From: an uncultured Gammaproteobacteria bacterium
GTDB lineage: Bacteria; Pseudomonadota; Gammaproteobacteria; DRJJ01
DNA length: 64,000 nucleotides
Reading direction: 5' to 3'
Assembly (NCBI GenBank): GCA_947258795.1
Contig: CAMYJU010000011.1
Span: 1 to 64,000, forward strand
The notes beneath the pieces are model-generated. The model saw only the letters and a list, made by a program, of their open reading frames with translations, ran no database searches and was not told where the DNA came from. This document shows positions 36,945 to 55,001 of the stretch, piece by piece; position 1 is the stretch's first letter, and the number at the start of each line of letters is the position of its first letter. A program made the translations under genes and the position numbers.

Positions 36945-39900
36945 CTAGAACTTACCGTAATAGCCTTCTTTCAGAGCGTCATACAGATTGGCCGCAGTGT
37001 GCATCTCGCCATCGTATTCCACTTCCTCGTTACCCTTGAGTTCTACCACGCTGCCGTCATCCAGGGTAAAGGTATAGGTGGTGTTCTCCAGGTCTTCCTC
37101 TTTCACCAGTACGCCCTGGAACGCCTCAGGATTAAAGCGGAAGGTAGTACAGCCCTTCAGGCCCTGGTGATAGGCATACTGGTAGATGTCCTTGAAGTCC
37201 TCGTACGGGAAGCTGGTCGGTACATTCGCGGTCTTGGAAATACTGGAGTCGATCCACTTCTGCGCCGCTGCCTGGACATCGACGTGCTCACGCGGGGTGA
37301 CGTCTTCCGCGGTAATAAAGTAGTCCGGCAGTTGCTGTTCGGGCTCTTCACTGAACGGCATCGCTTCCGGGTTGACCATCTCACGATAGGCCAGCAGCTC
37401 GAACGAGTACACGCCGACCTTTTCCTTGGTTTTCTTGCCTTCACGGATCACGTTACGTGAGTAGTGATGAGCGAAACTCGGCTCGATACCGTTACTGGCG
37501 TTATTGGCCAGTGACAGCGAGATGGTGCCGGTTGGCGCGATAGAGCTGTGATGGGTAAAGCGCGCACCGGTCTTTTCCATATCTGCGACCAGTTGCGGAT
37601 CGACCTCGGCGACCTGCTGCATATAGCGGCTGTAACGTGCATGTAACACCTTGCCCTTGACCTTGTCACCTACTTCGTAACCTTCGTTGGCCATATCCGG
37701 ACGCTTGCACAGCATCTCGGCTGTGACCTCGAAGTCTTCTTCCATGATCGGTGCAGGACCCTTCTCCTTGGCCAGATCCAGGCCTTCACGCCAGCCTTCA
37801 ATGGCCAACTCCTGGCTGACTTTTTCGGTGAAGTCCAGTGAGGCACGCGAACCGTACTTCATGCGCAGCATGGTCAACGTCGAACCCAGACCCAGAAAAC
37901 CCATGCCATGACGACGCTTGTGCATAATCTCATGGCGCTGCTCTTCCAGCGGCAGACCATTAATCTCGACCACGTTATCAAGCATGCGTGTAAATATGCG
38001 CACGGTCTTGCGGTAGTCTTCCCAGTTGAAGCTGGCCTCTTCGGTGAACGGGTGTTCGACAAAGCGGGTCAGGTTGATCGAACCGAGCAGGCAGGAGCCG
38101 TATGGTGGTAACGGTTGTTCACCACAATTATGTGCATGCAAACCATTTGCATCAAAACTATTGATACCGGGTATCTGCACGTCATACACATCTTCAATAC
38201 CATCCTCAGTGACTGCCTCGACTCGCGCAACAAAACGCTCGCGATTCAGCTTGCGGTTATAGTCTGCCAGGGACTGCTGCAGGCGCTCCGCCTTGTCCGT
38301 ATCGGCGAAACTGATTTTTTCATTGAACTGCAACAGATTTTCACCGCTGATGACCAGTTCATGCTGCGCCCTGGTCTTGTATTTATCCATACCGCCTTTA
38401 CCATTTGGCAAAAAGCTGATAGATGCCGGACGACGGTTTTTGTACAGCCGTGAGACAATACCCAGACGCAGCAGCATGCGCTGCACCGCTTCCAGCCGCG
38501 GCAGATCAGATTGCGACAGGCGCACACTAACGCCTTTTTCCTGCGAACCCTGCACCGAGCCATCCACATCGAACAGACCGCGCAGGAAACCCTGGTAGAA
38601 ATCACTGGACGCCTTTTCTACACGATCAGTGATCGCTTTATCGCCGGGTTGCATGCCCACTTCGTTTGCAAGCTGATGTATGGCTGACAGCTTCAAACGG
38701 TATTCATTACGATCAGGTATTTCTGACCAGCCCTGAAAATCACTGCGGTGCGGCAGGGTTTCTGCAGCATTGAGCGCCTCGGCCATGACTGCCTCGACAC
38801 CACTGTGCAATTCTGCATCAGACGCATTTGCTACAGCGGCAGGTTTCCACACAGACAGCACGGCGGCATCCTTTTTCAGGGTGCCATCTCCAACCAGAAG
38901 ACCCAGTAAATATCCCTGCGCTTTGGTATATTCTCCTTGCCATTGCGGGTTTACACGGTGATCATTCAGCAATACCCGGTCACCGGTTTTCAGCTCACCG
39001 GCCGCACACCATTCCGTTTCGGTCTGATAACGCGTAAAGCTGCTCACACGCCGCACACGATGATCACTGGTAAGGCGTAGCTGGTAACCTTCCGCGGTCT
39101 GTAATGACAGAACCGGTTTGGTAGCGGTTTTAAAGAAACCTTCATGCCCTGATGCATGCGCCTGGCCATCAACCCGCGCCATGAACGGTATACCAATCAG
39201 GTCGCCAACCTGTTGCGGACCGTTAATGGTCTGCACCCAGGTATCCGCGGTCACGCAAGGATTGGTCGCACGGACATTTTCACAGAACCAGTTGTTGTTC
39301 AGTTCGTTGACCTTGTCGATCAGGATAAAGCCCGGCTCGGCAAAATCGTAGGTGGATGACATGATCACATCCCACAGCCGGCGCGCCGGTATGGTCTTGT
39401 ACACCCGGCAGGCAACCAGGCCCTGGTCGTTACTGACATAACCATCCGAGTCCGGCCATTCCCGCCAGATCAGGTTTTCGCTGTCTTCCAGGTCAATTTC
39501 ACCGCTTTCCTGCTCCTTTTTATCGATCGGGAAGGCCAGCTTCCAGTCCTTGTCATGCTCGACGGCCTGCATGAAGTCGTCGGTAATCAGCAGCGACAGG
39601 TTGAACTGACGCAGGCGACCGTCTTCGCGCTTGGCGCGGATAAAGTCCACCACATCCGGGTGACCGACATCGAAGGTGGCCATTTGCGCACCACGTCTGC
39701 CACCGGCACTGGAGACTGTGAAACACATCTTGTCGTAGATATCCATGAACGACAGCGGCCCGGAGGTATAGGCACCGGCCCCGGAGACATAGGCGCCTTT
39801 CGGGCGCAGGGTCGAGAATTCGTAACCGATACCGCAACCGGCCTTCAGGGTCAGGCCTGCCTCGTGCACCTTGTTCAGGATATCGTTCATGGAGTCATGT

Positions 39901-40229
39901 ATCGTGCCGGAAACGGTACAGTTGATCGTGGACGTGGCCGGCTTGTGTTCCTGGGCACCGGCATTGGAGGTGATGCGACCGGCCGGGATCACCCCGCGGC
40001 GCAGGGCCCAGGTAAACTGCTCGAACCAGTGCTCTTGCAACTCAGCCGTGGTTTCCACATCTGCCAGGGCACGGGCCACACGCTTGTAGGTGTCGTCCAT
40101 ATCCTGGTCAACCGGTTCACCACCCTTGCTTTTAAGCCGATACTTCTTGTCCCAGATGTCCATTGAGGCGGGCTGAAAGGGTATTTCGGTAACGCGCGTT
40201 GTGACAGATTTCAGATAGGCTGGCTTCAT
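36945..40229 (-). CDS. nrdJa: Class II (B12-dependent) ribonucleotide reductase with intein
   Basis: A 1094-residue precursor. The host enzyme reduces ribonucleotides using adenosylcobalamin and works with or without oxygen. Visible: PAGRITSNAGAQEHKPATS, GCGIGYEFSTLRPKGAYVSG, MATFDVGHPDVVDFIRAKRE, the active-site loop ATNP-CGEQPLPPYGSC split by the intein, and FTHHSSIAPTGTISLSLAN. After intein removal (residues 325-701) the mature chain has about 717 residues. The Cys after the intein (702) is the equivalent of the thiyl-radical cysteine (NxCxE motif). Confidence 0.95.
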   Translation of the reverse strand: MKPAYLKSVTTRVTEIPFQPASMDIWDKKYRLKSKGGEPVDQDMDDTYKRVARALADVETTAELQEHWFEQFTWALRRGVIPAGRITSNAGAQEHKPATSTINCTVSGTIHDSMNDILNKVHEAGLTLKAGCGIGYEFSTLRPKGAYVSGAGAYTSGPLSFMDIYDKMCFTVSSAGGRRGAQMATFDVGHPDVVDFIRAKREDGRLRQFNLSLLITDDFMQAVEHDKDWKLAFPIDKKEQESGEIDLEDSENLIWREWPDSDGYVSNDQGLVACRVYKTIPARRLWDVIMSSTYDFAEPGFILIDKVNELNNNWFCENVRATNPCVTADTWVQTINGPQQVGDLIGIPFMARVDGQAHASGHEGFFKTATKPVLSLQTAEGYQLRLTSDHRVRRVSSFTRYQTETEWCAAGELKTGDRVLLNDHRVNPQWQGEYTKAQGYLLGLLVGDGTLKKDAAVLSVWKPAAVANASDAELHSGVEAVMAEALNAAETLPHRSDFQGWSEIPDRNEYRLKLSAIHQLANEVGMQPGDKAITDRVEKASSDFYQGFLRGLFDVDGSVQGSQEKGVSVRLSQSDLPRLEAVQRMLLRLGIVSRLYKNRRPASISFLPNGKGGMDKYKTRAQHELVISGENLLQFNEKISFADTDKAERLQQSLADYNRKLNRERFVARVEAVTEDGIEDVYDVQIPGINSFDANGLHAHNCGEQPLPPYGSCLLGSINLTRFVEHPFTEEASFNWEDYRKTVRIFTRMLDNVVEINGLPLEEQRHEIMHKRRHGMGFLGLGSTLTMLRMKYGSRASLDFTEKVSQELAIEGWREGLDLAKEKGPAPIMEEDFEVTAEMLCKRPDMANEGYEVGDKVKGKVLHARYSRYMQQVAEVDPQLVADMEKTGARFTHHSSIAPTGTISLSLANNASNGIEPSFAHHYSRNVIREGKKTKEKVGVYSFELLAYREMVNPEAMPFSEEPEQQLPDYFITAEDVTPREHVDVQAAAQKWIDSSISKTANVPTSFPYEDFKDIYQYAYHQGLKGCTTFRFNPEAFQGVLVKEEDLENTTYTFTLDDGSVVELKGNEEVEYDGEMHTAANLYDALKEGYYGKF
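38127..39257 (-). mobile_element. Intein with LAGLIDADG homing endonuclease
   Basis: Residues 325-701 of the NrdJa precursor (377 residues). Block A starts CVTADTWVQTINGPQQVGDL; block B is RLTSDHRVRRV; endonuclease motifs are YLLGLLVGDG and FLRGLFDVDG, each with its acidic residue, so the nuclease may be active; block F is YDVQIPGINSFDANGLHAHN, followed by +1 Cys. All splicing residues (Cys1, TxxH, penultimate His, Asn, +1 Cys) except a classical His-Asn context are in order: the end is HN-C. Confidence 0.95.
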
Positions 40230-41197: not shown

Positions 41198-42553
41198 ATG
41201 CACAAGCGTATTCGATCCGGCTTTGTCCTCCTGATCCTCGGCCTGTTGTCCTTATCTGCTGCATCCGCTGCGTTACCGGTTGCGGTTAATGGCAATAACC
41301 TGCCCACCCTGGCACCGATGCTGGAGCGAGCCCTGCCCGCGGTGGTGAATATCGCAACCGAGGCACGTGTGAAGATTGCACGTGACCCGTTTTTCGACGA
41401 TCCGATCTTTCGTCATTTCTTCGACATGCCGGAACGCCAGCGTGAAAAGAAGACCCAGAGTCTCGGTTCCGGTGTGATTGTCGATGCCGACAAGGGCTAC
41501 ATCATCACCAACAGCCATGTAATCGACAAGGCCGACAAGATCACCGTGACCCTGCATGATGGCCGCCAGTTCGAGGCCAAGGTGATAGGCCGTGACAAGG
41601 ACACCGATATCGCGGTGATCCGCATCCAGGCAGACAAGCTGACCGAACTGACGATGACCGACTCGGATGTGCTGAAAGTCGGTGATTTTGTGGTCGCGAT
41701 CGGCAACCCGTTTGGCCTCGGCAACTCCGTCACCTCGGGCATTATCAGCGGCCTGCGCCGTTCCGGGCTGGGCATCGAGGGCTACGAGGACTTTATCCAG
41801 ACCGACGCGTCGATTAACCCGGGCAACTCCGGTGGTGCGCTGGTCAACCTGCGCGGCGAACTGATCGGTATCAATACCGCGATCCTGTCGCGCAGCGGCG
41901 GCAACATCGGTATCGGTTTTGCGATTCCGTCGAACATGGCGAAATCGCTGATGGCACAACTGATCGAATTCGGCGAGGTCAAACGTGGTCTGCTTGGCCT
42001 CAGCGTGCAGGATATTACTGCTGATCTGGCCAACGCCTTTGGCCTGAAGACCAACAAGGGCGTGGTGGTCACCCGTGTGGTCGATGGCCTGCCTGCCGAC
42101 AAGGCCGGGGTCAGGACCGGTGACATTATCCTGAAGATTAACAAACAGGCGGTACTGAATGCAGCCTCGATGCACAATGCGATTGGCCTGTTACGCGTTG
42201 ATCAACGCGTGAAAATGGAGGTGTTGCGTAACGGCAACCGTCTGCAACTGACCGCGATCGTTACCGAGCCCATCCAGGCACGCATGCCGGCCGGGAAAAT
42301 ACACGCCCGCCTGCGTGGCGCCACACTCGGTGAAATGCCAGAAGGCCTGGAAATGACCGGTATCGTGATTACCAGAATCAAAACCGACAGCCCGGCCTGG
42401 AACGCTGGACTGCGTGAAGGTGATATCATCACCTCGGTGAACAAGCAGCCGGTGCGCACCCTGAAGCAACTGCAGAATACCGCCAGCAGCAGCCGTTCCC
42501 TGCTACTGAACATACGCCGCGGCAATAACGCCCTGTTCCTGCTGTTACAATAG
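41198..42553 (+). CDS. degQ: Periplasmic serine protease DegQ/DegP type
   Basis: A 451-residue Do-like protease/chaperone. Signal peptide 1-25 (FVLLILGLLSLSAASA). Catalytic triad His107 (NSHVID), Asp137 (DKDTDIAV) and Ser211 (NPGNSGGAL). Two PDZ domains follow (about 250-345 with GVVVTRVVDGLPADKAGVRT, and 365-450 with GIVITRIKTDSPAWNAGLRE). Degrades or refolds damaged envelope proteins. Lies 109 bp after hsp20, so the two stress genes may be co-expressed. Confidence 0.95.
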   Translation: MHKRIRSGFVLLILGLLSLSAASAALPVAVNGNNLPTLAPMLERALPAVVNIATEARVKIARDPFFDDPIFRHFFDMPERQREKKTQSLGSGVIVDADKGYIITNSHVIDKADKITVTLHDGRQFEAKVIGRDKDTDIAVIRIQADKLTELTMTDSDVLKVGDFVVAIGNPFGLGNSVTSGIISGLRRSGLGIEGYEDFIQTDASINPGNSGGALVNLRGELIGINTAILSRSGGNIGIGFAIPSNMAKSLMAQLIEFGEVKRGLLGLSVQDITADLANAFGLKTNKGVVVTRVVDGLPADKAGVRTGDIILKINKQAVLNAASMHNAIGLLRVDQRVKMEVLRNGNRLQLTAIVTEPIQARMPAGKIHARLRGATLGEMPEGLEMTGIVITRIKTDSPAWNAGLREGDIITSVNKQPVRTLKQLQNTASSSRSLLLNIRRGNNALFLLLQ

Positions 42554-42615
42554 TTTTCATACTGCCCTGGCTGGCTGTATACCCAGCTGTAGCAGACAGA
42601 CTATACTACCTGTAG

Positions 42616-44106
42616 CAGTATGTTGTCGTCTGTACAGGTTATATACGCATCAACAGGGAACACTACAATACCCGTCCGCGATATCCGGAAGACAGCTCAC
42701 AGGCGTGGCTGTCTGCTGTTATCCTGCTCAGTTTTCTGATCCTGGGTCTGTTCACCGCCTACCAGGAACTGCGCAGCCACCAACAGAACAATATCAAGAC
42801 CGCGCAAATCGTGACCGCCTCGGTCGCCAGGAATATTTCATACCAGTTAAGTGAACTCAGGCGTTCGGTCAGACTGCTGGCACTGGCCAATATTCCATTA
42901 TTACAAAAGCTGCATGCCAATCCGAACAATTCCGTATTGCAAGCGAAGCTCAGGAACATTGTCTCACAACAGTTCCCGCGCTCGTTCGCAGTCACCCTTG
43001 CCGCCAGTAATGGTGAACTACTGCTGGACAATTTCAACGGCAACATTGGCGAGATCTGTATCAGAGACATCAACAGCTTCACCAGCTCCGGCCAGGAACC
43101 ACCCGCTGTCGTTCATCCCAATCCGGATGGTTATCATATCGACATCATGATCCGCGTGATGATAGACCCCGGCACGCCGGCGATCCTGTTTATCAGTTTT
43201 TTTGCGGAACTGTTCAGCCCGTTACTGTCGCAGAACCAGGCGATCGGCCAGCGCTTTCTGATTACCAACAGCAAGCATGGCAAACTGATTGAACTCACAT
43301 CGGGGGGCAGTAGAAAACAACTGGGTAAAGAGGTTTACCTGAACGACAGTGAACATCAGCAAATCATTGCCAGCAGCCCGGTACAGGGCGCGACCTGGAA
43401 TGTGATTGCGCTGCCGCATGGCAATCAGGCCGGTCTGTTCACCGGTGGTGTGTCCAGCAGCCTGCTATGGACCATTGCCTTTATTATCCTGTTCTCCGCA
43501 CTATCTGCGTTTCTGGCATTCCGCAGCCACAGGCAGCAGCGTCGTATGCAGCAGGACCTGGCCAACATCGATGACAACAGCCTGTTCCGGCAGCGTCAGT
43601 GCGCACAACCGCTGCTGGAGATCATGTCCAGGACCGGATCAAAGAGTGGCCTGCACGGGACCATGCATCACTGCCTGTCACATCTTCTAAAACTCAGCCA
43701 CAGCCAACACGGTATGATCCTGGAACGCAGCGGCCAGACCGAACAGGGATACATGGTGCATATCCTCGCATTCCTGCATGCCGATGATATGCTGTCATCG
43801 GCCACGCACCTGAATACGCAGTACTATAGCCCGGACAGCAACTCTGTGATCGGGCATGCACTGACCACCCCTGAAGTCACTTGCGAGGACCAGATAACGG
43901 CGGACAGCAACACCGGACTGCCAAGCGGCTACCCCGACACCGATACCCTGTATGTCAAAACGATCGAGTTTAACGGCGTCATTCTAGGTACGCTGGTACT
44001 GACCAACTGGGAACAGCAAAATGCGGATTCCCTGGAGGATTACAGTGCGATTATCAATTATTGCGCGATGTGCCTGAAATGTCATAAGCAGTCAGGCCAG
44101 GCCTGA
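42616..44106 (+). CDS. Membrane sensor-like protein with uncertain start
   Basis: The frame is open from 42616 but the first canonical start is GTG 42811. The codons before it encode a convincing membrane helix (WLSAVILLSFLILGLFTAY, 42706-42762), so the gene begins upstream: by an unusual start or after an indel; dropping two bases of the TATATA at 42640 would connect ATG 42620. The product has a periplasmic sensor-like domain (about 70-270), a second helix (LLWTIAFIILFSALSAFLAF) and a GAF-like cytoplasmic end (GMILERSGQTEQGYMVHIL, GVILGTLVLTNWEQQ). No kinase or cyclase domain follows. Confidence 0.65.
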   Translation, partial: QYVVVCTGYIRINREHYNTRPRYPEDSSQAWLSAVILLSFLILGLFTAYQELRSHQQNNIKTAQIVTASVARNISYQLSELRRSVRLLALANIPLLQKLHANPNNSVLQAKLRNIVSQQFPRSFAVTLAASNGELLLDNFNGNIGEICIRDINSFTSSGQEPPAVVHPNPDGYHIDIMIRVMIDPGTPAILFISFFAELFSPLLSQNQAIGQRFLITNSKHGKLIELTSGGSRKQLGKEVYLNDSEHQQIIASSPVQGATWNVIALPHGNQAGLFTGGVSSSLLWTIAFIILFSALSAFLAFRSHRQQRRMQQDLANIDDNSLFRQRQCAQPLLEIMSRTGSKSGLHGTMHHCLSHLLKLSHSQHGMILERSGQTEQGYMVHILAFLHADDMLSSATHLNTQYYSPDSNSVIGHALTTPEVTCEDQITADSNTGLPSGYPDTDTLYVKTIEFNGVILGTLVLTNWEQQNADSLEDYSAIINYCAMCLKCHKQSGQA

Positions 44107-44110
44107 TCCA

Positions 44111-47104
44111 TCAGGTGGTCAGTTGCCGGTAGATATCCGAGACCTTTAACGGCAGCTTGCGTACCTCGTCGATGACCGTGTAATTCACAGCACCATACAT
44201 ATGCGGCAAATAGTCAGCCCCTTCTGTGTCAATGGTGATACAGAACGGATGGATACCCATCTGCCGGGCCTCGATCAGCGCCTTGCGTGTATCTTCTATA
44301 CCGTACTCGCCACGATAGCCATCGAAATCATCCGGCTTGCCGTCCGACAGGGTAATCAGCAACTTGGTTCGCGCATCGACATTATCCAGCATCTTGCTCA
44401 GGTGGCGGATGGTCACACCCATTCGCGTGTAGTCCCTGGGCTCGATACCACTGATGCGCATACGTACCTGTTCGTCATAACCCTCTTCAAAACTTTTGAT
44501 ACGATAAAGTTCACAACGCTTGCGTGTCATGCCGGAAAAGCCGTAGATCGCATAGCGGTCACCGAGGATCTCCAGCGCCTCGCATAACAGGATCAGGGAT
44601 TCGCGTTCGGCGTCATTGATCCAACCCTTGGTGGAGCCGCTCATATCGACCATGAACATCACCGCGATATTGCGTTCCAGTTTCTGCTTGCGCGTAAACA
44701 GGCGTTCGGTCATTTCCATGCCGGTCGATACATCCGCGTTGGCCTCGACCAGTGCATCAATATCGATGTCATCACCATAGGGCTGGCGTTTCAGTACACA
44801 GGCCTCGCCTCGCAATATCTCAAAAGTACGACGAATACTGTGGGCCAGCCCCTTGTATTTATCCAGGGTGTCGCTGACAAAATCGGCCGACCGGGTCTTG
44901 CAGTCCAGCTCGCGCAGCACACACCAGTTCTTGCGAAACTGCTGGCGCTTGTAGTCCCATTCGTTGTACAGAAAGGCGCCTTCTTCATGGTAGGTGCCCT
45001 TCCAGACATCCAGCCCGGCCTCGCGCTCATTGTCCTGATCGGCATGGTAGGCACCCGGACCGGCCGCAACCAGGTATTCAGGCGGGATTTCACCCAGATC
45101 CTGGACGATTGAGGCAATCAGGCCGCGCGCCTCGTCCGGCGGCGCGACCGGCTTGCCATCGAGCAACAGTTCGAAAGACCGGTCTCCGTCTTCCTGCTCA
45201 TTGACCACCAGCTCAAACGCCGAACCGTCTGCAGCCGCCTGCTGCTCACCGAACTGGTCCTGCAGACGGTCCAGTTGCGCCAGCATGTTGCGAAAGCGTC
45301 CCTTTTCCCGTTCCAGTCGCGCCTCGGTGATCTTCTCTGCCTGCAGGATGTCCATCTCGCCCTGGAAACACAAAGCAGGTGGTACCGCCAGTGTATACAC
45401 GCTGTCCAGCAGGTCCAGACTGGTTTGCGCGCTGGCCTGCCGGTCGAGCAAGGGTGCGCATAACGCCTGCCAGACGTCAGGGATCAGCGTTTCCCCTGCC
45501 TGTTCCAGCAAGGCCCGCATAGCCCGATACAACCCGGGCAGATCATCTTCGATACGGGTCTGCAGGCGGATGATTTCGAGACGATGATACAACTGTGTCG
45601 CCTTGTCGTAATCATCATAGGTCGACAGCTGCCTACCGGGGTCCATCCGGTAACTGCCATACCAGAGCTGCGCCCACTGAAACACGGCGATCAATTTATA
45701 CAGCTCGAAATTCTGTTCGGTCGTATCAAACCGGTTGATGCGTTCCGGTAAAAACAGGGTTTCCGTATCAGTAAAGCTTTTGTCTGCCGTATCCAGATGC
45801 AGCTTGCGCCCGGCCAGACCACGTACAAACAGTTCCAGCACCACCGCGCATTCACTGAACTCCGCACCGCATTGACCAGCCAGGTGTTGTTCTGCAAACT
45901 GCTGTACATCTTTCAACAGTGCAATCGCGGCATGCAGCCCACGCACATCGTATTCATCAATGGCCTGCAACAGCCATACCCGGGTACCCTGTATGCCTAT
46001 TTCGGAAATGGCCTGATGCGCATATAACGCAAACTGATAGGCCATCTCGGCATTGGTGCGCGCCAGCACATCGACCCAGTGCAACACGAAATCCTGCTGC
46101 TCGCGGTTACTACCGGCCAGCTCCCTTGCCGGCTGGCTGGCGGTACGTCTTGAAGACAGCACCGGTTCCAGCGGCACATCCAGCCGTTCCTCCAGGGCGA
46201 GCGCATTCAGTGGCAGACGCTCACCTTCTACCGACAGCATCTCGTCATCGGTCAGACGCACGGCCATACCGGTCTGCAAGACCCGTCCGTCAACACAACG
46301 TACCGCCAGATCAAGCAATTCGATATCACGGCCCGGCATGGCCCGATACAGCATGTCAGCCAGGCTCTCCGCGTGCCAGCCACTGGCCTGTGGTGACAGC
46401 CACACACCACGATGATGCTCGGCCAGCAGACGTGGCAGGTAGGACACCAGTGGTGCCAGGTCGACCTTGATATCCCAGGAACGATGATGCGGCCCGCGTT
46501 GTATCTGTGGCGGTCTGAGCACAACCAGGTGAAACTTCTGGCCTTCGCGCACCAGGTGCTCGACATAGGCCAGCGGGTCCTCATGTACCCACTCCACCGC
46601 ATCGTCATGAATCAGTGAGCGCGAGCGTTCCAGCAACTCGGCTGACGAATTGACATGCACCACGGACGCACCGGCTGCGCAGGCACTGGCGGTTACACAG
46701 CCGCTGCCGCCAAACAGGACCAGTACGCGCAGATTATCGATATGGTAACAGCCACTCAGGCGCTGCCTGACCCAGTCCGCGCACAACGACTGCTCGGCCT
46801 GAAATCCGGTTCCACCCTTGTTGTCCAGGTCAACCTGGCACTGGCTCTCCGGGTAGTGCAGACGCCAGTTGGCATGCTGCTGCGGCTGACGTGGCCGCCA
46901 CATCCCGGTTGCGCCATTGATCACATGAACCCAGTCAGCCTGCCAGTTCCCATCAGCTGCCGGCTCGCGAATCGAGCGATCCGGGCGGTCTATCGTAAAA
47001 CGGCCCATTTTTTCGAGCACGCGGCCATTGCCAAAATCCAACAGGGCGTAATCGCCCGCGGATTCTGCGACCAGTTGTATGGTTTTAAATCTGCGATGAC
47101 TCAT
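44111..47104 (-). CDS. Fusion of a methyltransferase-like domain to a NorD/CbbO-type VWA protein
   Basis: A 997-residue protein. Residues 1-285 align by eye with RlmI-like SAM methyltransferases: start FKTIQLVAESAGDYALLDFG, motif I VLVLFGGSGCVTASACAAGA (127-146), then VNSSAELL where the family has VDxS, and VVLRPPQIQRGP where it has DPPxFxRGP. Both acidic residues are lost, so the domain is probably not a working methylase. The rest resembles NorD/CbbO, with GTYHEEGAFLYNEWDYKRQQ and a C-terminal VWA domain with MIDAS motif DMSGSTKG (Asp820), later TLSDGKPDD. Such proteins pair with MoxR-type AAA+ ATPases to activate metalloenzymes; the fitting ATPase is at 52946. Confidence 0.85.
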   Translation of the reverse strand: MSHRRFKTIQLVAESAGDYALLDFGNGRVLEKMGRFTIDRPDRSIREPAADGNWQADWVHVINGATGMWRPRQPQQHANWRLHYPESQCQVDLDNKGGTGFQAEQSLCADWVRQRLSGCYHIDNLRVLVLFGGSGCVTASACAAGASVVHVNSSAELLERSRSLIHDDAVEWVHEDPLAYVEHLVREGQKFHLVVLRPPQIQRGPHHRSWDIKVDLAPLVSYLPRLLAEHHRGVWLSPQASGWHAESLADMLYRAMPGRDIELLDLAVRCVDGRVLQTGMAVRLTDDEMLSVEGERLPLNALALEERLDVPLEPVLSSRRTASQPARELAGSNREQQDFVLHWVDVLARTNAEMAYQFALYAHQAISEIGIQGTRVWLLQAIDEYDVRGLHAAIALLKDVQQFAEQHLAGQCGAEFSECAVVLELFVRGLAGRKLHLDTADKSFTDTETLFLPERINRFDTTEQNFELYKLIAVFQWAQLWYGSYRMDPGRQLSTYDDYDKATQLYHRLEIIRLQTRIEDDLPGLYRAMRALLEQAGETLIPDVWQALCAPLLDRQASAQTSLDLLDSVYTLAVPPALCFQGEMDILQAEKITEARLEREKGRFRNMLAQLDRLQDQFGEQQAAADGSAFELVVNEQEDGDRSFELLLDGKPVAPPDEARGLIASIVQDLGEIPPEYLVAAGPGAYHADQDNEREAGLDVWKGTYHEEGAFLYNEWDYKRQQFRKNWCVLRELDCKTRSADFVSDTLDKYKGLAHSIRRTFEILRGEACVLKRQPYGDDIDIDALVEANADVSTGMEMTERLFTRKQKLERNIAVMFMVDMSGSTKGWINDAERESLILLCEALEILGDRYAIYGFSGMTRKRCELYRIKSFEEGYDEQVRMRISGIEPRDYTRMGVTIRHLSKMLDNVDARTKLLITLSDGKPDDFDGYRGEYGIEDTRKALIEARQMGIHPFCITIDTEGADYLPHMYGAVNYTVIDEVRKLPLKVSDIYRQLTT

Positions 47105-47141
47105 AAACCCATTCTATCCGTTTCCTGCCGCTTGTGCTTTA

Positions 47142-47549
47142 ATGGTGTCTGAAATCATGACACAGGGACTGGCCGTGACCGAAACCGAAACCGATACCGA
47201 TACCGATACCGATACCGATATGGACTCCAAAATCGCCGCGCTGCGTGTGGAATTTGTCAACGGCCTGCCCGCGCGTCTCGATACCATCTCCAGCCTGATG
47301 GCCCTGCTCAATGACCAGTCCGAACACCGACATGAACTGTATAGACAGGTACATAGCCTGACCGGTTCGCTGGGCTTGTTTGAATACGCCGAGGCCAGCA
47401 AGACCGCCAGGTCCATGTGTAACCTGGTCGAACCGGATATACCACTGGACGATGTACTGTATTCGCAGGATGAGCTGAACCGATTACTGGCGGAGCTGTA
47501 TAGGCAGGTTGAGGAGTTAGTGAGGTCAGGGCAAAAAAAAGCCCTCTGA
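47142..47549 (+). CDS. HPt-domain protein with a Thr-Asp repeat N-terminus
   Basis: About 110-135 residues. The helical part resembles a histidine phosphotransfer domain: ELYRQVHSLTGSLGLFEYAE with candidate phospho-His71, although the family's Lys after it is Thr. The N-terminus, if ATG 47142 is used, carries TETETDTDTDTDTD from a hexanucleotide repeat; ATG 47220 directly after the repeat is an alternative start that skips it. It is divergent from the VWA gene and ends at a terminator before hdrB. Confidence 0.65.
   Translation: MVSEIMTQGLAVTETETDTDTDTDTDMDSKIAALRVEFVNGLPARLDTISSLMALLNDQSEHRHELYRQVHSLTGSLGLFEYAEASKTARSMCNLVEPDIPLDDVLYSQDELNRLLAELYRQVEELVRSGQKKAL
47178..47219 (+). repeat. Hexanucleotide tandem repeat
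   Basis: Two ACCGAA units followed by five perfect ACCGAT units, ending at an ATG. In frame, so copy-number change alters length by two residues per unit without a frameshift. Confidence 0.95.
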
Positions 47550-47556
47550 CGAGGGC
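47540..47556. terminator. Bidirectional terminator between HPt gene and hdrB
   Basis: GCCCTC-TGACG-AGGGC hairpin with TTTTAA on the plus side and an A8 run on the other, which reads as T8 for transcripts from hdrB. It serves both converging units. Confidence 0.85.
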
Positions 47557-47583
47557 CTTTTAATACCTGCTGGTTATTGTGTT

Positions 47584-48483
47584 TTATTTTCCAGCTATCT
47601 CCTCCAGCTGTTTGGCCTTTATTATCTGTCCATTTAGCCCAGCTTGTTTTGCATCTTTGCCATATGCTACAGACATCAAAGTACTGTAATACACCACCGG
47701 CATCTTGAACTTGGTGTTGTATTTGGCGTTTATGTGGTCCTGGTAGAGCTCAACGTTGGCCTGACACAGCGGACAGGGGGTAACGATCATATCGGCACCG
47801 CCGTCATAGGCCGCTTCGATAATACCCTTGATCAGCTCATGGGACTTGTCCTGTTCGGAAAAGGCCAGTGCGCCACCACAGCACTGTACCTTCTTTTCGT
47901 AGCTCTCGATCGGCTCGGCACCCATAGTTTCGACCAGTTTGTCCAGGTATTTCGGATTCTCGTATGACTCGCCGTCGATACCGAATGGACGGTTGGTCTG
48001 ACAACCGACATAACCTGCGATCTTGATACCTTCCAGCGGCCTCTTGACGTGCTTACCCAGCTCATCATAGCCGAAGTCCTCGATCAGCACCTCGACCATA
48101 TGCCGAACATTCTGGTCGGCCTTGACGTTGAGTCCGGCGGCCGACAGGGCCTGGTTGGTCTCTTCCATCAGCCCATCGTCTTCATGCAGACGCTCCTGGG
48201 TCTCCTTGGTAGCCAACCAGCAGGCAGCACAGGTGGCAACCACGTCCTGACCGGGGTTGGCCTGTTCGGACAGGGCCAGGTTACGGGCCGACATGGCCAG
48301 GCGCGGCAGCTCACCGCCGCCGGCATAACCGATGGAAGCGGCACAGCAGTTCCAGTCCGGAATTTCGTTGAGCTGGACATCCAGTTCCTCGCACATGGCG
48401 TCCACGGACACCATGTAGTTGGCAGCGGAAGCCCCTTTCTGGGAAGAACAGCCGGGGTAAAAGGAATATTCTTTCTTAGCCAT
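47584..48483 (-). CDS. hdrB: Heterodisulfide reductase-like subunit B
   Basis: A 299-residue protein with two CCG domains: WNCCAASIGY with ATCAACW, and CGGALAFSEQDKSH preceded by VQCC, followed by VTPCPLCQANVEL. In HdrB these cysteines hold the non-cubane 4Fe-4S clusters that reduce heterodisulfides. Start at 48483 is chosen for AGGAG upstream. Last gene of qmoA-qmoB-hdrC-hdrB; HdrCB replaces the membrane subunit QmoC in several sulfur oxidisers and Gram-positive sulfate reducers (family knowledge). Confidence 0.92.
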   Translation of the reverse strand: MAKKEYSFYPGCSSQKGASAANYMVSVDAMCEELDVQLNEIPDWNCCAASIGYAGGGELPRLAMSARNLALSEQANPGQDVVATCAACWLATKETQERLHEDDGLMEETNQALSAAGLNVKADQNVRHMVEVLIEDFGYDELGKHVKRPLEGIKIAGYVGCQTNRPFGIDGESYENPKYLDKLVETMGAEPIESYEKKVQCCGGALAFSEQDKSHELIKGIIEAAYDGGADMIVTPCPLCQANVELYQDHINAKYNTKFKMPVVYYSTLMSVAYGKDAKQAGLNGQIIKAKQLEEIAGK

Positions 48484-48496
48484 TAATCTGTTCTCC

Positions 48497-49123
48497 TCAA
48501 CCTTCAAACTTCTTAATCTTGGCTTCTTCTATTTCTTTGGCCTTTTCGATGATTGCCTGCATGCCGGACTTGTCTTTCACGGTATGACCACCGAAAAACT
48601 CCATCGGGTTCAGGCGCTTGGCCTTGTACATACCCAGGCCAACAGCCTGCATCTTCAGCGAGGTCTTGATACCTTCAGCAATACCGTTCATGAAATACAC
48701 ACCCAGACTCAGCTTGAGTTCATTAACGCGACCGTTCTTGACAATGTTGTCCCAGAACTTATGGGCAAACTTCATCGTCGGTTGCTCCTTGGGCGCCATA
48801 CCCAGACGGTCGGCGTAATGGGCCAGACCATGCATGATGTGGGTAATCGGCAGGCCACGCGGACAGCGCACGATACAGTTGTAGCAAGAGGTACACATCC
48901 ACATGGAGCTGGAGGTCAGCACCTCTTCGCGCTTGCCGGCACGAATCATCATGAACAGTTCCTGTGGCGGGTGATCCCAGTGCGGACCGAACGGGCAGGA
49001 ACCCGAGCACACACCGCACTGCATGCACATCTTGACCCATTCACCCTCTTCCACGTTCGCAGTCACTTCCTTGAGGAAGTTGTTGCGATATTTTTCGATC
49101 ATTTCGGTATTCAGATTACTCAT
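48497..49123 (-). CDS. hdrC: Heterodisulfide reductase-like subunit C
   Basis: A 208-residue iron-sulfur protein with two classical 4Fe-4S motifs: CMQCGVCSGSCPFGPHWD and CTSCYNCIVRCPRGLP, the HdrC pattern, followed by a helical domain. It links QmoAB electrons to HdrB. Ten bases separate it from qmoB and 13 from hdrB, a tight operon. Confidence 0.92.
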   Translation of the reverse strand: MSNLNTEMIEKYRNNFLKEVTANVEEGEWVKMCMQCGVCSGSCPFGPHWDHPPQELFMMIRAGKREEVLTSSSMWMCTSCYNCIVRCPRGLPITHIMHGLAHYADRLGMAPKEQPTMKFAHKFWDNIVKNGRVNELKLSLGVYFMNGIAEGIKTSLKMQAVGLGMYKAKRLNPMEFFGGHTVKDKSGMQAIIEKAKEIEEAKIKKFEG

Positions 49124-49133
49124 GTCTGGATCC

Positions 49134-51350
49134 TCAGAACTTGAATGGGCTCATGCCGATCTTCTCGATCGTTTCAGCCATGTCGTTGATCAGTTGTGGT
49201 GCGCGTTCAATATCGGTGATCGCGACCTCGTAGGTAGCAACACGCTCCGGCTCCAGGCTCAGTGACTGCAGGGTATCGTCGACCTTGCTCATACGAACAT
49301 TGGCAATCTCGGAGCCCTTGACGAAGTGACACTGGTAGTTCTCGCCCTTCTGGCAGCCCATCAGTACAACACCGTCATAGCCGCTGTTCAGCGCGTCAGT
49401 TACCCAGATCAGGTTGGTCGAACCCAGGCAGCGAATCGGTATCACACGTGCAAAGGCACTATATTCGTTACCTTTCATCGCCGCCATATCCAGTGCGGGG
49501 TAGGCATCGTTTTCACAGGCCAGTACCAGGATACGCGGTTTTTCGTCGAACTCATCAGGCATTTCGACGTTCTTGATCTGGTTGCCGACGGTATCGACCG
49601 AGTAGTTCTCGAACGAGATCACACGTACCGGGCAGGCACCCATACAGGTACCACAACGACGGCAGCGGGCCTCGTTGAACAGCGGATAACGTTCCTCGTC
49701 CTCGTCGATCGCACCGAACGGGCATTCGACCGTACAACGTTTACACTGGGTACAACCTTCCTTACGGAAAGACGGGAAACTCAGGTCACCGGAACGTGGA
49801 TGTGCCGCACGACCCAGATCGGCATTTTCAGCTGCCTGGATGGCCTTCAGCGCGGCACCGGTGGCATCTTCCTTGGCCTGCAACATATCCATTGGACGGC
49901 GAACAGGACCGGCGGCGTAGATACCGGTACGGCGTGTTTCATACGGGAAACAGATAAAGTGTGAATCATTGAAGCCGTGGCGCAACTGCGGCACATCCTT
50001 ACCCTGGCGATAATCCATGTTAAGGATGGAATCAACGCTGACCTCCCACTGGCCAGGCTCGTCCTGTGGTACTTCATCAATATCAACACCGGCGTTGGCA
50101 ACCTGTCCGGTTGCCAGTACCACCAGGTCGGCATCGGCTGTGGTTTCCTCGTCGAGGATCAGGTCCTTGAACTTGACCGTGCAACCACCACCGCTGTCAG
50201 TCACTTCCGAGGCGATACCCTTGGTAAAAATAACGCCCTTGTCCTGGCCACTACGATAGAAGTCCTCACCACCGGCACCCGGGGTGCGCAGGTCGCTAAA
50301 CATCACCGTGGTATCGATATCAGGATTGTTGTCCTTGAAGTACATCGCCTGCTTGATCGAGGTCAGGCAGCAGTGGCCTGAGCAGTATGGCAAGTGGCCC
50401 TCTTCCTCACTACGCTGACCAGCGCACTGGATGAAGACCACGCTCTGTACTTCCTTGCCATCGGCGTTCTTGATCGGGCCGCCGTTGGCTTCAAGCGCCA
50501 TCGCATCCAGCTCGGCCTGGGTAACGACATTCTTGCTCTTGCCGTAACCGAGGTGCGGTAACTGGTTGGCATCATATTCGGTGTAACCGGAAGTCTGGAT
50601 GATCGCACCAAAGTTCTCGGTGGTCGTTGAACCGGACTCGGTAGTGATATCGGCCGAGAAGCGACCCGGCGCACCACTGGTCTTGGTGATCGTGCTGTTC
50701 AGGTGAACCTCGATCTTGTCGCTGGCTTCAACTGCTGCGATCAGTTCTGCCACCCCGGTATCTTCCGGGTCTGCGTATGGGGTATGCTCTGGAATACGCT
50801 TCCAGGCCTTCGCCGCAGCACCACCCAGTGAACCGGTTTTCTCAACCAGGGTTGATGCATAGCCGGCCTTGGCCGCTTCGACTGCAGCAGTCATACCGGA
50901 TACACCACCACCGACGACCAGCAGGTTCTTGCGACCTTCGGACTGACCGCTGGTTTGAGGAATGTTCATCGCGCCGACCTCAAACACCGCCATGCGCGTA
51001 TAGTCTTCGGCCATTTCCTGGGTGGTTTCCTGCGCTTCATCGGTGTCCGGACGCACCCAGAGTACACCTTCACGGATGTTGCCACGTGTGATGGCAACGT
51101 TTTCCAGGTTAAAGGCCTCGGTCTTGGCGCGTCGTGAACAGGCGACAATCGCAACATGGTTAACACCGTCGTTGTCGATGTCGTCCTGGATCATCTTGAC
51201 GCCTTCGGCGCTACACAGGAAGTCGTGTTCTTTGGTGACATTGGATTTGCACTCACGCTCGGCAATGGTTGCCATCTGTGAGGTGTTGATACGGTCGCCA
51301 ATGCCACAACCCTTACAGATATAGGTTCCTATTTTCTTTTCGTCTGACAT
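49134..51350 (-). CDS. qmoB: QmoB, FAD/iron-sulfur subunit of the quinone-interacting complex
   Basis: A 738-residue HdrA-like flavoprotein. N-terminal TYICKGCGIGDRIN; FAD-binding VVGGGVSGMTAAVEAAKAGY (about 147-166); two ferredoxin clusters CTQCKRCTVECPFGAID and CRRCGTCMGACPVRVI; C-terminal MvhD-like domain with ACENDAYPALDMAA, RCLGSTNLIWV and CQKGENYQCHF. It receives electrons from AprBA (sulfur oxidation direction) together with QmoA. GGAGGGG precedes the start; three bases after the qmoA stop. Confidence 0.95.
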   Translation of the reverse strand: MSDEKKIGTYICKGCGIGDRINTSQMATIAERECKSNVTKEHDFLCSAEGVKMIQDDIDNDGVNHVAIVACSRRAKTEAFNLENVAITRGNIREGVLWVRPDTDEAQETTQEMAEDYTRMAVFEVGAMNIPQTSGQSEGRKNLLVVGGGVSGMTAAVEAAKAGYASTLVEKTGSLGGAAAKAWKRIPEHTPYADPEDTGVAELIAAVEASDKIEVHLNSTITKTSGAPGRFSADITTESGSTTTENFGAIIQTSGYTEYDANQLPHLGYGKSKNVVTQAELDAMALEANGGPIKNADGKEVQSVVFIQCAGQRSEEEGHLPYCSGHCCLTSIKQAMYFKDNNPDIDTTVMFSDLRTPGAGGEDFYRSGQDKGVIFTKGIASEVTDSGGGCTVKFKDLILDEETTADADLVVLATGQVANAGVDIDEVPQDEPGQWEVSVDSILNMDYRQGKDVPQLRHGFNDSHFICFPYETRRTGIYAAGPVRRPMDMLQAKEDATGAALKAIQAAENADLGRAAHPRSGDLSFPSFRKEGCTQCKRCTVECPFGAIDEDEERYPLFNEARCRRCGTCMGACPVRVISFENYSVDTVGNQIKNVEMPDEFDEKPRILVLACENDAYPALDMAAMKGNEYSAFARVIPIRCLGSTNLIWVTDALNSGYDGVVLMGCQKGENYQCHFVKGSEIANVRMSKVDDTLQSLSLEPERVATYEVAITDIERAPQLINDMAETIEKIGMSPFKF

Positions 51351-51353
51351 GGC

Positions 51354-52640
51354 TTACCCCTCCGCTCCTGCTACGCTGTTGATGACCTGTATCGCTCGCA
51401 GGGCGCTGGCAGTTGCATTTTGTACTGCACGGTTCACATCGAGCGCATCGGCCGAACAACCGGCGGCGAACACCGCGCCATTGGATTCGTCAGCCTCGAT
51501 GAAACCTTCTTCATTGATTTTCACTTCTACCGGAAAGGCATCTGCCGGAACGCTGGGCTCCATGCCGATAGCCAGAACAACCAGATCATGCTCGTTGGCA
51601 TAACGGTTGTAACCCTCGGTGTCTACGCCATGCAGAACCGGGTTACCGTTTTCCTTGTTCTCGACGACGGATGCCACCTTGGACTTGGTGAAGGTCACGT
51701 TGGGCAGTTCCTGTACCCTGCGGTAGAAGTCATCGATACGGTCGATCGCACGGATATCGATGTAGTAAATGGTTGATTGGCCTTCCTCGCCGTATTTTTC
51801 GTTAACGTAGTTGGCGTGTTTCAGGCTGGCCATGCAGCAGATGCGTGAGCAGTGCTTCAGGTGGTTCTGGTCGCGTGAACCGGCGCACTGGATCATGGCC
51901 ACATTCTTGGCCTCCTGGCCGTCGGATGGACGCAGGATCTTGCCACCGGTCGGACCATGCGGATCACACAGGCGCTCAAATTCGACACTGGTGATTACGT
52001 TGGCAATGCGATCATAGCCATATGGCTGGATCTTGGCGGCGTCGTATGGCTGCCAGCCGGTTGCCCAGATAATCGCACCGACGGTCAGGTCGATTTCCTC
52101 TTCCTGCATATCCAGATCGATCGCATCGTACTTGCAGGCTTCCTTGGCCTTGGTCGCATCATCTGTGCCTATAACGCGTGGATCCAGTACATAGCGTTGC
52201 GGATGGGCCATCTTGTGTTGCAGGTAGGCACCCTTGCGTTTGCCCAGACCGTAGTTGAATTCATCATCAAACTCAGTCTCAACCACCTTGGCGCAGTCAC
52301 CACATGCTGTGCAATTTTCATTGACATAACGCGGGCTTACCTTGACCTTGACGCTGTAGTTACCGGCTTCACCGCTGACTGCAGCCACTTCGGCCATGGT
52401 CATGATGCGCAGGTTCTTGTTCATCTTGGTGCGGCGATTATTGATTTCCAGGCCGCAGGTAGGGTGACAAAGTTTCGGGAAGTAGCGGTACAACTGACTC
52501 ACACGTCCGCCTAAGCTGGGGCTTTTTTCGATCAAGATGACCTGTTTGCCGCACTCAGCAGCTTCTAGCGCTGCAGTCATGCCGCTGATGCCGCCACCGA
52601 CCACCAGAATCGTCTGGTTGGTTGCGATTACATCCGACAT
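51354..52640 (-). CDS. qmoA: QmoA, FAD subunit of the quinone-interacting complex
   Basis: A 428-residue HdrA-like flavoprotein. Start at 52640 is fixed by GGAGG before MSDVIATNQT. FAD motif ILVVGGGISGMTAALEAAEC, then YFPKLCHPTCGLEINNRRT, CTACGDCAKV with the cluster cysteines, and VFAAGCSADALDVNRAV. First gene of the qmoAB-hdrCB operon. With QmoB it hands electrons from APS reductase toward the membrane. Confidence 0.94.
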   Translation of the reverse strand: MSDVIATNQTILVVGGGISGMTAALEAAECGKQVILIEKSPSLGGRVSQLYRYFPKLCHPTCGLEINNRRTKMNKNLRIMTMAEVAAVSGEAGNYSVKVKVSPRYVNENCTACGDCAKVVETEFDDEFNYGLGKRKGAYLQHKMAHPQRYVLDPRVIGTDDATKAKEACKYDAIDLDMQEEEIDLTVGAIIWATGWQPYDAAKIQPYGYDRIANVITSVEFERLCDPHGPTGGKILRPSDGQEAKNVAMIQCAGSRDQNHLKHCSRICCMASLKHANYVNEKYGEEGQSTIYYIDIRAIDRIDDFYRRVQELPNVTFTKSKVASVVENKENGNPVLHGVDTEGYNRYANEHDLVVLAIGMEPSVPADAFPVEVKINEEGFIEADESNGAVFAAGCSADALDVNRAVQNATASALRAIQVINSVAGAEG

Positions 52641-52836
52641 TGGCTTTCCTCCGTTACGCACAGGCTGAATATCTGTTATTCGCCAGCCTTGGGTATCCGT
52701 GTTTGCCGCCTGCAATACAAGGACCGGATAAAGCCAGCATGAGGCGTATAATCTACTCCTGACAGCAGCGTGTTACCAGCAGAAACTGGCCCGGCGGGAT
52801 TGAAATTTCGAATAAGCAAATAGATTAGCTATATGA

Positions 52837-52855
52837 TGGTTATTGTTAATAACCA
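52837..52855. promoter_or_regulatory. Palindrome in the qmoA / AAA+ gene gap
   Basis: TGGTTATTGTTAATAACCA, a perfect 8-bp-arm palindrome midway between the two divergent genes. A candidate operator for a regulator of the sulfur region; no regulator gene is adjacent. Confidence 0.4.
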
Positions 52856-52945
52856 GCCTTTAACAGCAGACCAGCCATTAAGTTGCCAAACGCGTATAGA
52901 ATCCGCAAAATACCCCGGTATAACCGTCAGGAAAAACAACTCGCT

Positions 52946-53770
52946 ATGACCCAGGGACTAACAGCTAAGGCGCTGAAACCAGAAGAGTATTTCATCGAGG
53001 ATGAGCCCTATTACGAGGCCGTTGGCAATGAAATCGAGATCTTCGAGGCCGCCGACCGTAATCATTTGCCAGTGTTACTCAAGGGGCCGACCGGCTGCGG
53101 CAAGACCCGCTTCATGGAACATATGGCCTGGCGACTGCAACGCCCGCTGATTACCGTCTCCTGCCATGATGACCTGACCGCTTCGGACCTGGTCGGGCGT
53201 TATCTGATAAGCGGAGGCGAAACGGTCTGGATCGACGGGCCACTGGCCAGGGCGGTACGCCATGGCGCGATCTGCTACCTGGACGAGATCGTCGAGGCAC
53301 GCAAGGACACCGTCGTGGTGATCCATCCGCTGGCGGACGACCGCCGCGTACTACCGATCGAGAAGCTCGGTGAGCTGCTCGAGGCCGGTCCGGACTTTTG
53401 CCTGGCCCTGTCCTATAACCCGGGTTACCAAAGCGTACTGAAGGACCTGAAACAGAGCACCCGGCAACGCTTTGTCGCACTGGAATTCGATTACCCGGAT
53501 GCCGGGCTGGAAAAAAAGATTATTATCAAGGAATCTGGTGTCGACCAGGCGCAGGCCGCGCTGCTGGTCAAATTTGCACGTATGACCCGCAACCTGAAGG
53601 GCAGCGGCCTCGAGGAAGGCGCCAGTACCCGCCTGCTGGTGCATGCCGGCAAGCTGATCGCCAGCGGTATCCCACCGGTCAGCGCCTGCCAGAGCGCAAT
53701 CGCCCAGGCCTTAACCGACGAGGCCGAGATGCTCACCGCGATCAACGAGCTCAGCGCCTCGGTATTCTAG
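52946..53770 (+). CDS. NorQ/CbbQ-type MoxR AAA+ ATPase
   Basis: A 274-residue AAA+ ATPase. Walker [17 protein letters not shown], Walker [15 protein letters not shown], sensor region [16 protein letters not shown] and arginine-finger part [15 protein letters not shown] match CbbQ/NorQ. It starts at [16 protein letters not shown] (52946). CbbQ-CbbO reactivates Rubisco and NorQ-NorD inserts metal in NO reductase; neither target is in the window, but a VWA partner is (44111-47104). It separates qmo from ykgJ/apr and is on the opposite strand. Confidence 0.9.
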
Positions 53771-53821
53771 GTGGGAAAATCTCCGGAATAGCCCTACAGG
53801 GCTAACCGCATCACACCCGGA

Positions 53822-54757
53822 TCAGCTACTTTCCTCACCACCGGCGGCAGGGTCGCGCAGGCTGTATTTTTCGACATTTTCCTGGTGTTTCTTTTGTATG
53901 ACGTCCTTGCGCTGCTCATAACGCGCCTTGACCGCACCATCCTTCATCGGGATGGTTTGCTCACCAAACAGGACCTGTTTCAGGAAGCGCATACAGAACC
54001 TGACCAGTTCTTCATCGTTCTCGTCGATCGCCTTGCGCTGTTCGTCGTCCAGATCGAACATTTTGACAAAACCGTCACTTTGCGTGAACAGTCGGAATCC
54101 ATCCAGATCGTAGGATTGAGAGAACAACTGCATACTGCGCTGGCTTGGCGCTCCTACGGTCGGTCCGGATGAACGCTTCTTGATAATAATATCGAGCCAG
54201 TCACGGTTCATGTCATCGTAAATCTCGACACCCTGCTGCTGGCGAAACTCGGCAACCGTCATTTCGTTGTCTTCTTCATGCCCCTTGCAATGATCTTCCT
54301 TCACAACAAAATAGACATCTTCCATAACACCGGAATCCTTGCGACGCATACCCATGGTGCCATAGGGATAATAACGACAGGCGGTTGGGCGATCTTCGTA
54401 CACACTACAGCCTGCTTCGGTCATGAACTGGCAGGCAGCGCCTTCATCGACCGGACGCATCTTGATGCCGGGCATGCCATGAAAGTCCATTTCGTATGGA
54501 CGCGTGTATTTCAACTGTGCCTGCCAGGTTGGAATATCGAAATGGCGAGCCAGACGCAGGACATCATATGGTGTCATGGTGATATCGATATTGGAACAAC
54601 AGGCATTGAAACAGCTGATACCCTTGTAGCACTTGAAACTGATCTTCGAATCCAGCGCCAGCTGCTGGGGCTGCACGGCTGTTTTGAACGGCAGATCGAA
54701 TTCCTGGAAAATATTGTCGTCGTTGAAACGTTCCACTTCAGGCTTGTCGTCACTCAT
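53822..54757 (-). CDS. YkgJ-type cysteine-cluster protein
   Basis: A 311-residue cytoplasmic protein. The YkgJ cluster is in the first half: CYKGISCFNACCSNIDI, then CQFMTEAGCSVYEDRPTACR with RYYP, and a later CKGH. Such clusters bind iron or zinc; the function is unknown. The C-terminal half is charged and helical. It lies upstream of qmo and downstream of aprA on the same strand, so a role in maturing or serving APS reductase is a reasonable guess. Confidence 0.85.
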   Translation of the reverse strand: MSDDKPEVERFNDDNIFQEFDLPFKTAVQPQQLALDSKISFKCYKGISCFNACCSNIDITMTPYDVLRLARHFDIPTWQAQLKYTRPYEMDFHGMPGIKMRPVDEGAACQFMTEAGCSVYEDRPTACRYYPYGTMGMRRKDSGVMEDVYFVVKEDHCKGHEEDNEMTVAEFRQQQGVEIYDDMNRDWLDIIIKKRSSGPTVGAPSQRSMQLFSQSYDLDGFRLFTQSDGFVKMFDLDDEQRKAIDENDEELVRFCMRFLKQVLFGEQTIPMKDGAVKARYEQRKDVIQKKHQENVEKYSLRDPAAGGEESS

Positions 54758-54917
54758 ATCTCTATCCTGCCACCATGATGATGGGGTTTACTGCAAAGGG
54801 CTGCATATTTTAGCAGAACTCAGTCGGATTCACATATTTTTGTCTACTTTTTAGCCAGTTTTTGATGTGCTTAGCCAAAACTAAATGCTTACCAAGCCTT
54901 TAAAATAAAGCGATTTT

Positions 54918-55001
54918 ATGGATCCCTGACAAAATCTTTCGGGGAAGACAGCAAAGCGTCCGGGAAACAACTCCATACCGTCTCATAGAACGCTTTCAGC
55001 G
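54918..55001. repeat. Dispersed repeat, copy 2
   Basis: ATGGATCCCTGACAAAATC (54918 on) and TACCGTCTCATAGAACGCTT (54976 on) match 16820-16850 and 16772-16796, in the reverse order. See copy 1. Confidence 0.55.

Follow-up and report, generated by a model that had tools for sequence, protein, structure and literature searches.

A VWA protein with a methyltransferase-like head, and its predicted CbbQ-type ATPase partner, linked to APS reductase and qmo-hdr genes in Gammaproteobacteria

What does a methyltransferase-like domain contribute when it is joined, in frame, to the VWA adaptor of a MoxR-type ATPase, and on which enzyme would such a machine act? The question is raised by one gene in a 64,000-nucleotide stretch of DNA from an uncultured gammaproteobacterium (GenBank assembly GCA_947258795.1, contig CAMYJU010000011.1, positions 1 to 64,000), referred to here as the window. 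The minus strand of this gene is a single ORF of 997 amino acids with no internal stop, and the plus-strand reading of the same interval meets several stops. We confirm that the ORF joins a methyltransferase-fold head to a complete NorD/CbbO-type protein, with the following parts.

44111-47104, minus strand: fusion gene, pseudo-methyltransferase head plus NorD/CbbO-type VWA protein, 997 aa (ORF, phmmer)
46250-47104, minus strand: head, aa 1-285, predicted class I methyltransferase fold of the 2igt/Atu0340 type (phmmer to 2igt, AlphaFold2 model)
46694-46723, minus strand: motif I, LVLFGGSGCV, aa 128-137, glycine-rich loop mostly retained
46643-46657, minus strand: motif II, HVNSS, aa 150-154, with Asn152 in place of the acidic residue
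46493-46525, minus strand: motif IV, VVLRPPQIQRG, aa 194-204, with Arg197 in place of the catalytic Asp of DPP
44984-46219, minus strand: NorD/CbbO-like N-terminal domain and linker, aa 296-707 (profile comparison)
44114-44983, minus strand: VWA domain, aa 708-997 (phmmer to NorD 9qhd)
44633-44647, minus strand: MIDAS DMSGS, aa 820-824, with T893 and D921 elsewhere in the domain (alignment to 9qhd)

A second MAG of the genus, assembled independently, has the same fusion, with the gene divided across contig ends, and the same in-frame arrangement in many independent genomes rules out a chimeric assembly or a chance fusion. Within the tail, residues 708-996 match the solved NorD structure (PDB 9qhd) with a phmmer E of 9e-49, and the MIDAS is complete, with D820-x-S822-x-S824, T893 and D921 in the DxSxS-T-D pattern; a sequence-only reading of this DNA had described just such a C-terminal half with an intact MIDAS. 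The middle of the protein, about residues 296-700, matches the N-terminal regions of NorD and CbbO with probabilities of 94.7% and 84.2%, respectively, in a profile comparison. A structure prediction for the full-length protein, computed from a three-row alignment, has a pLDDT of 38, too low to place the domains relative to one another.

The same reading had called the N-terminal ~285 residues an RlmI-like methyltransferase. The methyltransferase fold stands; the RlmI assignment does not. A search with the N-terminal part gives a significant methyltransferase match, with residues 11-239 aligning to PDB 2igt_A at a phmmer E of 4.7e-18, and the match to RlmI (PDB 3c0k) is weak (E=0.0012). The head stays under the cut-offs of curated Pfam and NCBIfam models, scoring 14-17 bits against a cut-off of 712 for the model of RlmI, the 23S rRNA m5C1962 methyltransferase. 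An AlphaFold2 model of residues 1-294 has a mean pLDDT of 70.5, with block means of 73-97 across the core (residues 101-240) and a poor N-terminal 90 residues. In a structure search this model retrieves 2igt chains first, over its whole length (E=5e-23 to 2e-22), followed by RlmI-type and RlmK-type enzymes. Judged by sequence and predicted fold, the nearest solved relative of the head is Atu0340 (2igt), not RlmI. The 2igt structure is of a SAM-dependent methyltransferase of Agrobacterium, and we know of no assigned function for enzymes of this type. The likeness in sequence and fold extends over nearly the entire head and includes the signature DYxLLDFGxGRxLERxG together with motif I. In contrast to the head, a part of a 997-aa protein, Atu0340-type proteins stand alone at about 300 aa, and DPP is intact in all 14 relatives sampled outside Gammaproteobacteria, whereas the window head reads RPP. 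A search of viral contigs with the head yields no match.

The surroundings of the gene contain the following features; qmo and soe are named here from the domains encoded and the order of the genes.

47142-47549, plus strand: small Hpt-domain gene, divergent from the fusion gene
47584-52715, minus strand: qmoA-qmoB-hdrC-hdrB operon (51354, 49134, 48497, 47584)
52883-53770, plus strand: CbbQ/NorQ-type MoxR AAA+ ATPase, predicted partner (Pfam AAA_5 1e-32, CbbQ_C 6.5e-30)
53822-54757, minus strand: CxxCxxCC-domain (YkgJ-like) protein between the ATPase and aprA (Pfam PF03692 3.5e-10)
55157-57109, minus strand: aprA, APS reductase (TIGR02061 above cut-off)
57148-57606, minus strand: aprB, APS reductase (TIGR02060 above cut-off)
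58099-62969, plus strand: soe-type molybdoenzyme cluster

Along the minus strand the order is aprB, aprA, the CxxCxxCC-domain protein, qmoA, qmoB, hdrC, hdrB and then the fusion gene. Because a hairpin and then eight T follow hdrB, and the plus-strand Hpt gene intervenes, the fusion gene is probably transcribed separately from the operon. An Rfam search of 42000-58000 returns no match.

Several further observations concern the neighborhood itself. The Hpt gene has a run of six-base repeats near its start that encodes an acidic/Thr stretch. A CxxCxxCC-domain protein lies beside aprA in two loci of different families, that of the window and L104 (484-1329), and is a candidate for a cofactor protein of APS reductase. 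Adjoining the fusion gene, 42811-44106 (plus strand) encodes a protein of unknown family; larger proteins encoded next to headless VWA genes in L097, L101, L129 and L141 share its N-terminal part at about 28-32% identity. An HtrA/DegP-type protease, encoded in the window at 41198-42553 (plus strand) and also in L054, L057, L059, L064, L065 and L115, is recurrently found near the head or VWA gene, even where the chaperone part is gone. The window also encodes, at 36945-40229 (minus strand), a ribonucleotide reductase large subunit with an intein that bears a LAGLIDADG homing endonuclease domain.

Known MoxR/VWA systems suggest how the protein may work. NorQD, represented by NorD of Paracoccus denitrificans and Jhaorihella thermophila (9qhd), shares the layout of N-terminal domain, linker and VWA domain as well as the MIDAS, and its MoxR partner has the same pore-hairpin motif as the window CbbQ. 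NorD is needed for FeB insertion into cNOR. Unlike the window protein, NorD is about 590-650 aa long, lacks a methyltransferase head, serves nitric oxide reductase and belongs to a separate clade; the window tail falls outside the NorD-like rows, and its locus is apr/qmo rather than nitric oxide reductase genes. The source genome has another NorD-like gene, at C6. The CbbQO rubisco activase of autotrophic bacteria likewise combines a VWA domain, a MIDAS and a CbbQ-type ATPase partner, but CbbO is headless at about 770 aa, its N-terminal part is just remotely similar to that of the window protein, and the CbbO-like outgroups form another clade. RavA-ViaA is likewise a MoxR ATPase with a VWA protein and acts on a respiratory flavoprotein complex (FrdA), but ViaA has an unrelated helical N-terminal domain (PMC10585395).

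In the NorQD cryo-EM structure a finger of the VWA domain occupies the pore of the ring, the MIDAS presumably touches acidic residues of the client and the NorD N-terminal domain forms a second leverage point (PMC13036017); that domain has also been proposed to confer target specificity (PMC9976466). The window ATPase contains Walker A and B motifs and a 10-residue stretch that corresponds to the NorQ pore-hairpin motif GRXLL/IXXXXT (PMC13036017). In ten further headed loci a CbbQ-type ATPase gene lies no more than 2.5 kb from the fusion gene, and the pairing of the two genes, proposed in the sequence-only reading, is conserved across genomes.

By analogy, the fusion protein would be the VWA adaptor of a MoxR-type remodeling machine. 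On the pattern of NorQD and CbbQO, the CbbQ-like ATPase would assemble into a ring of six subunits. The C-terminal VWA domain of the fusion protein would reach with its finger into the pore of that ring, and its MIDAS would bind an acidic patch of the client. The most likely client is an enzyme of the APS reductase/QmoAB-HdrCB electron-transfer chain, which the machine would open so that a cofactor can be inserted or release from an inhibited state. AprA matches fumarate reductase flavoprotein models, and the VWA domain of ViaA binds the flavoprotein FrdA (PMC10585395); since AprA resembles this type by model matches, RavA-ViaA may serve as a precedent for such a client. With both NorD-type leverage domains already present in the window protein, the head would most simply add or alter a contact with the client. 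We regard as evenly balanced the overall reading that CbbQ and the VWA fusion form a NorQD/CbbQO-like machine for APS reductase/Qmo-Hdr, in which the head is a pseudo-methyltransferase docking or sensing domain.

A profile built from two heads retrieves 12 fused genes from 369 genomes of the class, one of them (G067) cut by a contig end, and later searches bring the set to 24 genes in 10 families of Gammaproteobacteria, including L033; the L033 gene (J048) and that of G767 are near-copies. Among 398 genomes of the phylum there is no fusion besides that of the window, and the head matches best to free-standing ORFs of about 300-490 aa; stand-alone 2igt-type relatives are common in the phylum outside Gammaproteobacteria. 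Two long ORFs that resemble fusions (G258 and G354, 1004-1018 aa) were rejected, their first 300 residues being CbbQ read out of frame, and a third (G212) looks like the same kind of extension.

Of the 369 genomes, 59 carry the tail family, a count that takes in the 12 with a fusion; outside those 12 the protein has about 700 aa, and most members of the clade are headless. In a tree of 78 VWA proteins the tails group together, apart from the NorD-like and CbbO-like rows, and a long branch (SH-aLRT 100) divides them from the CbbO-like outgroup of roughly 755-800 aa. On this phylogeny, the tail is a third clade of NorD/CbbO-like proteins, distinct from the outgroup rows related to NorD and to CbbO. 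The 12 headed rows and the headless G083 form one group (SH-aLRT 94), in which the headed state needs two changes; this topology suggests, with some uncertainty at that support, that the head was gained once and cleanly lost once, in G083. As separate observations, six loci (L098, L102, L105, L108, L129 and L134) have a second, headless VWA paralogue, with a family member elsewhere in the same genomes, and the stretches examined around these paralogues contain no recognizable CbbQ gene.

A neighborhood table built with tblastn links qmoAB-hdrCB to 10 headed and 13 headless loci, 23 in total; the gene-neighborhood survey in sulfur oxidisers that the sequence-only reading had proposed is therefore positive. 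The headed loci are those of J048, G090, G290, G204, G122, G067, G156, the window and G001, all with the operon within 10 kb of the tail gene, and that of G771, in which part of qmoA appears at the edge of the piece examined. In the 13 headless loci the ATPase and VWA genes are adjacent and divergent from qmo; in the window genus the fusion gene lies on the other side of the qmo operon, yet remains linked. The stretches examined in G263, G359 and G099 contain no qmo linkage (the contigs of G263 and G099 are short), and in G284 the ATPase/VWA pair is far from qmo. Since headless orthologues share the qmo context, the head is dispensable to the core function.

Across the 369 genomes of the class, with phylogeny ignored, the tail co-occurs with AprA in 49 of 59 cases (p about 7e-22) and with QmoB in 43 of 59 (p about 1e-30; QmoB scored only in genomes with AprA or the tail); these p values overstate the evidence, because genomes are treated as independent and the search for QmoB was confined to AprA or tail genomes. 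AprA is found in 11 of the 12 fused genomes. As 16 of the 59 tail-bearing genomes, some of them incomplete, show no QmoB and 10 show no AprA, the tail family is not restricted to the Apr/Qmo pathway, and the 14 genomes with QmoB and no tail indicate that the machine is not universally needed.

These exceptions bear on the choice of client, which we infer from linkage. The machine could instead serve an enzyme outside Apr/Qmo, such as Rubisco or one of the cytochrome enzymes, with the qmo linkage reflecting co-inherited autotrophic sulfur genes. CbbQO does act on Rubisco (PMC4660213), and some tail loci without Qmo or AprA have other neighbors, including cytochrome c genes in three. However, the tail clade stands apart from both the CbbO-like and the NorD-like outgroups, and physical linkage persists throughout the loci counted above, even where the gene has been relocated. 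We consider another client rather unlikely, and retain an enzyme of the APS reductase/QmoAB-HdrCB chain as the most likely target.

The window head reads VNSS at residues 151-154 and LRPP at 196-199, as the sequence-only reading had described (VNSS for VDxS, LRPP for DPP), and a second genome of the genus, the only one found besides that of the window, reads VNPS and VRPP, so these changes are not sequencing errors. That reading had treated both motifs as degenerate. For motif IV this extends to the family: the Asp is present in 2 of 24 fused heads versus 17 of 17 stand-alone relatives, with R, S, P, Q, N or T in the other 22. For motif II it does not, since an acidic residue (D or E) is retained in 21 of the 24; it is replaced by Asn in both species of the window genus and by Ala in G156. 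Positions 43, 44, 109, 134, 164, 171 and 197 are fixed in the outside methyltransferases and in three stand-alone gammaproteobacterial heads, and are scrambled in fused heads; position 102 holds F in outside enzymes and Y in those three heads, and varies among the fused heads. Twenty-two columns are still common to fused heads and outside enzymes, including the N-terminal signature and a motif I glycine, and other positions, such as W243, D211 and PGR at 257-259, are newly fixed in fused heads. Between close pairs dN/dS is 0.09-0.21 for heads and 0.07-0.19 for tails, a result that holds in unsaturated pairs; between the window and G001 it is 0.095 for the head and 0.072 for the tail, with dS saturated. 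The head is thus under purifying selection, like the tail, and is constrained although its methyl-transfer chemistry is probably gone.

Three other accounts of the head compete on this evidence. It could be an adenosine-binding sensor of SAM, SAH, AMP or APS that gates the machine with no methyl transfer, consistent with a motif I and, mostly, a motif II that outlast the catalytic motif, and with a pathway whose substrate and product (APS and AMP) are adenosine nucleotides (PMC2211403). The motif II acid is nevertheless missing from the window genus and G156, and T134 in motif I is lost along with other positions, and we think a sensor of this kind unlikely. Alternatively, the head might still methylate a client or cofactor through a non-canonical motif IV. 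The retained motif I, the frequent motif II acid and purifying selection are compatible with activity, and DPP itself persists in two fused lineages (G099 and G156) and in all three gammaproteobacterial stand-alone heads, so that the heads of G099 and G156 may, on this residue pattern, still be catalytic. Replacement of the motif IV Asp in nearly all fused heads, with six more conserved positions changed and the motif II acid also gone from the window protein, makes activity distinctly unlikely for the head at issue. Finally, that the head is a functionless, decaying passenger of an accidental fusion is very improbable: its catalytic residues are lost, it is cleanly gone from G083 and it is absent from most orthologues, but it has been retained in 10 families at tail-like dN/dS, still shares 22 columns with real methyltransferases and has fixed new ones.

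A recruited recognition domain, as first proposed from the sequence alone, fits the evidence of lost catalytic residues, purifying selection and N-terminal position. On this view the head would descend from a free-standing SAM-dependent methyltransferase that was joined to the VWA protein a single time in Gammaproteobacteria. It would have lost methyl transfer in most lineages and been kept as an additional domain for docking the client or sensing a ligand. We do not argue for several separate losses of the catalytic Asp, as the head tree needs a single loss followed by residue changes; on the tail tree, G099 nests among the non-DPP rows.

Three gammaproteobacteria (G132, G094 and G244) have the head as a free gene of 280-290 aa. 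They carry another type of apr cluster, in which aprBA adjoins a membrane gene that its position and hydrophobicity mark as a candidate aprM, and give no QmoB match. In G132 the head is intact, with DPP; a VWA remnant in the same frame lies directly past its stop, and a CbbQ remnant lies on the opposite side.

L059, 10300-12700: decayed CbbQ and VWA remnants flanking an intact free-standing head gene

From this arrangement the G132 head appears to have persisted as a gene once the chaperone part was deleted. The pattern is suggestive of a working enzyme in the early fusion, with lineages later keeping either the enzyme or the machine.

In the literature searched, with subscription papers only partly covered, work on CbbQO, NorQD and RavA-ViaA is found, with no description of a VWA partner that bears a methyltransferase head or of a MoxR/VWA pair linked to apr/qmo; the earlier statement that no described CbbO/NorD protein has such a head holds to this extent, yet genomes contain 24 undescribed fused genes. 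The literature searched likewise names no factor that matures or reactivates APS reductase or the QmoAB-HdrCB of sulfur oxidisers. The conserved qmo linkage now provides named candidates for that role. The tails also add a third clade to the known NorD/CbbO-like proteins. We propose tentatively, and at somewhat less than even confidence, that this clade represents a third CbbQO/NorQD-type class, acting on APS reductase/Qmo-Hdr in gammaproteobacterial sulfur oxidisers, one clade of which bears a non-catalytic adenosine-sensing or docking head. The fusion shows that MoxR/VWA adaptors are able to acquire an entire fold as a head, and its relatives offer a natural series from enzyme to binding domain: stand-alone with DPP, fused with DPP, fused without DPP, and head lost.
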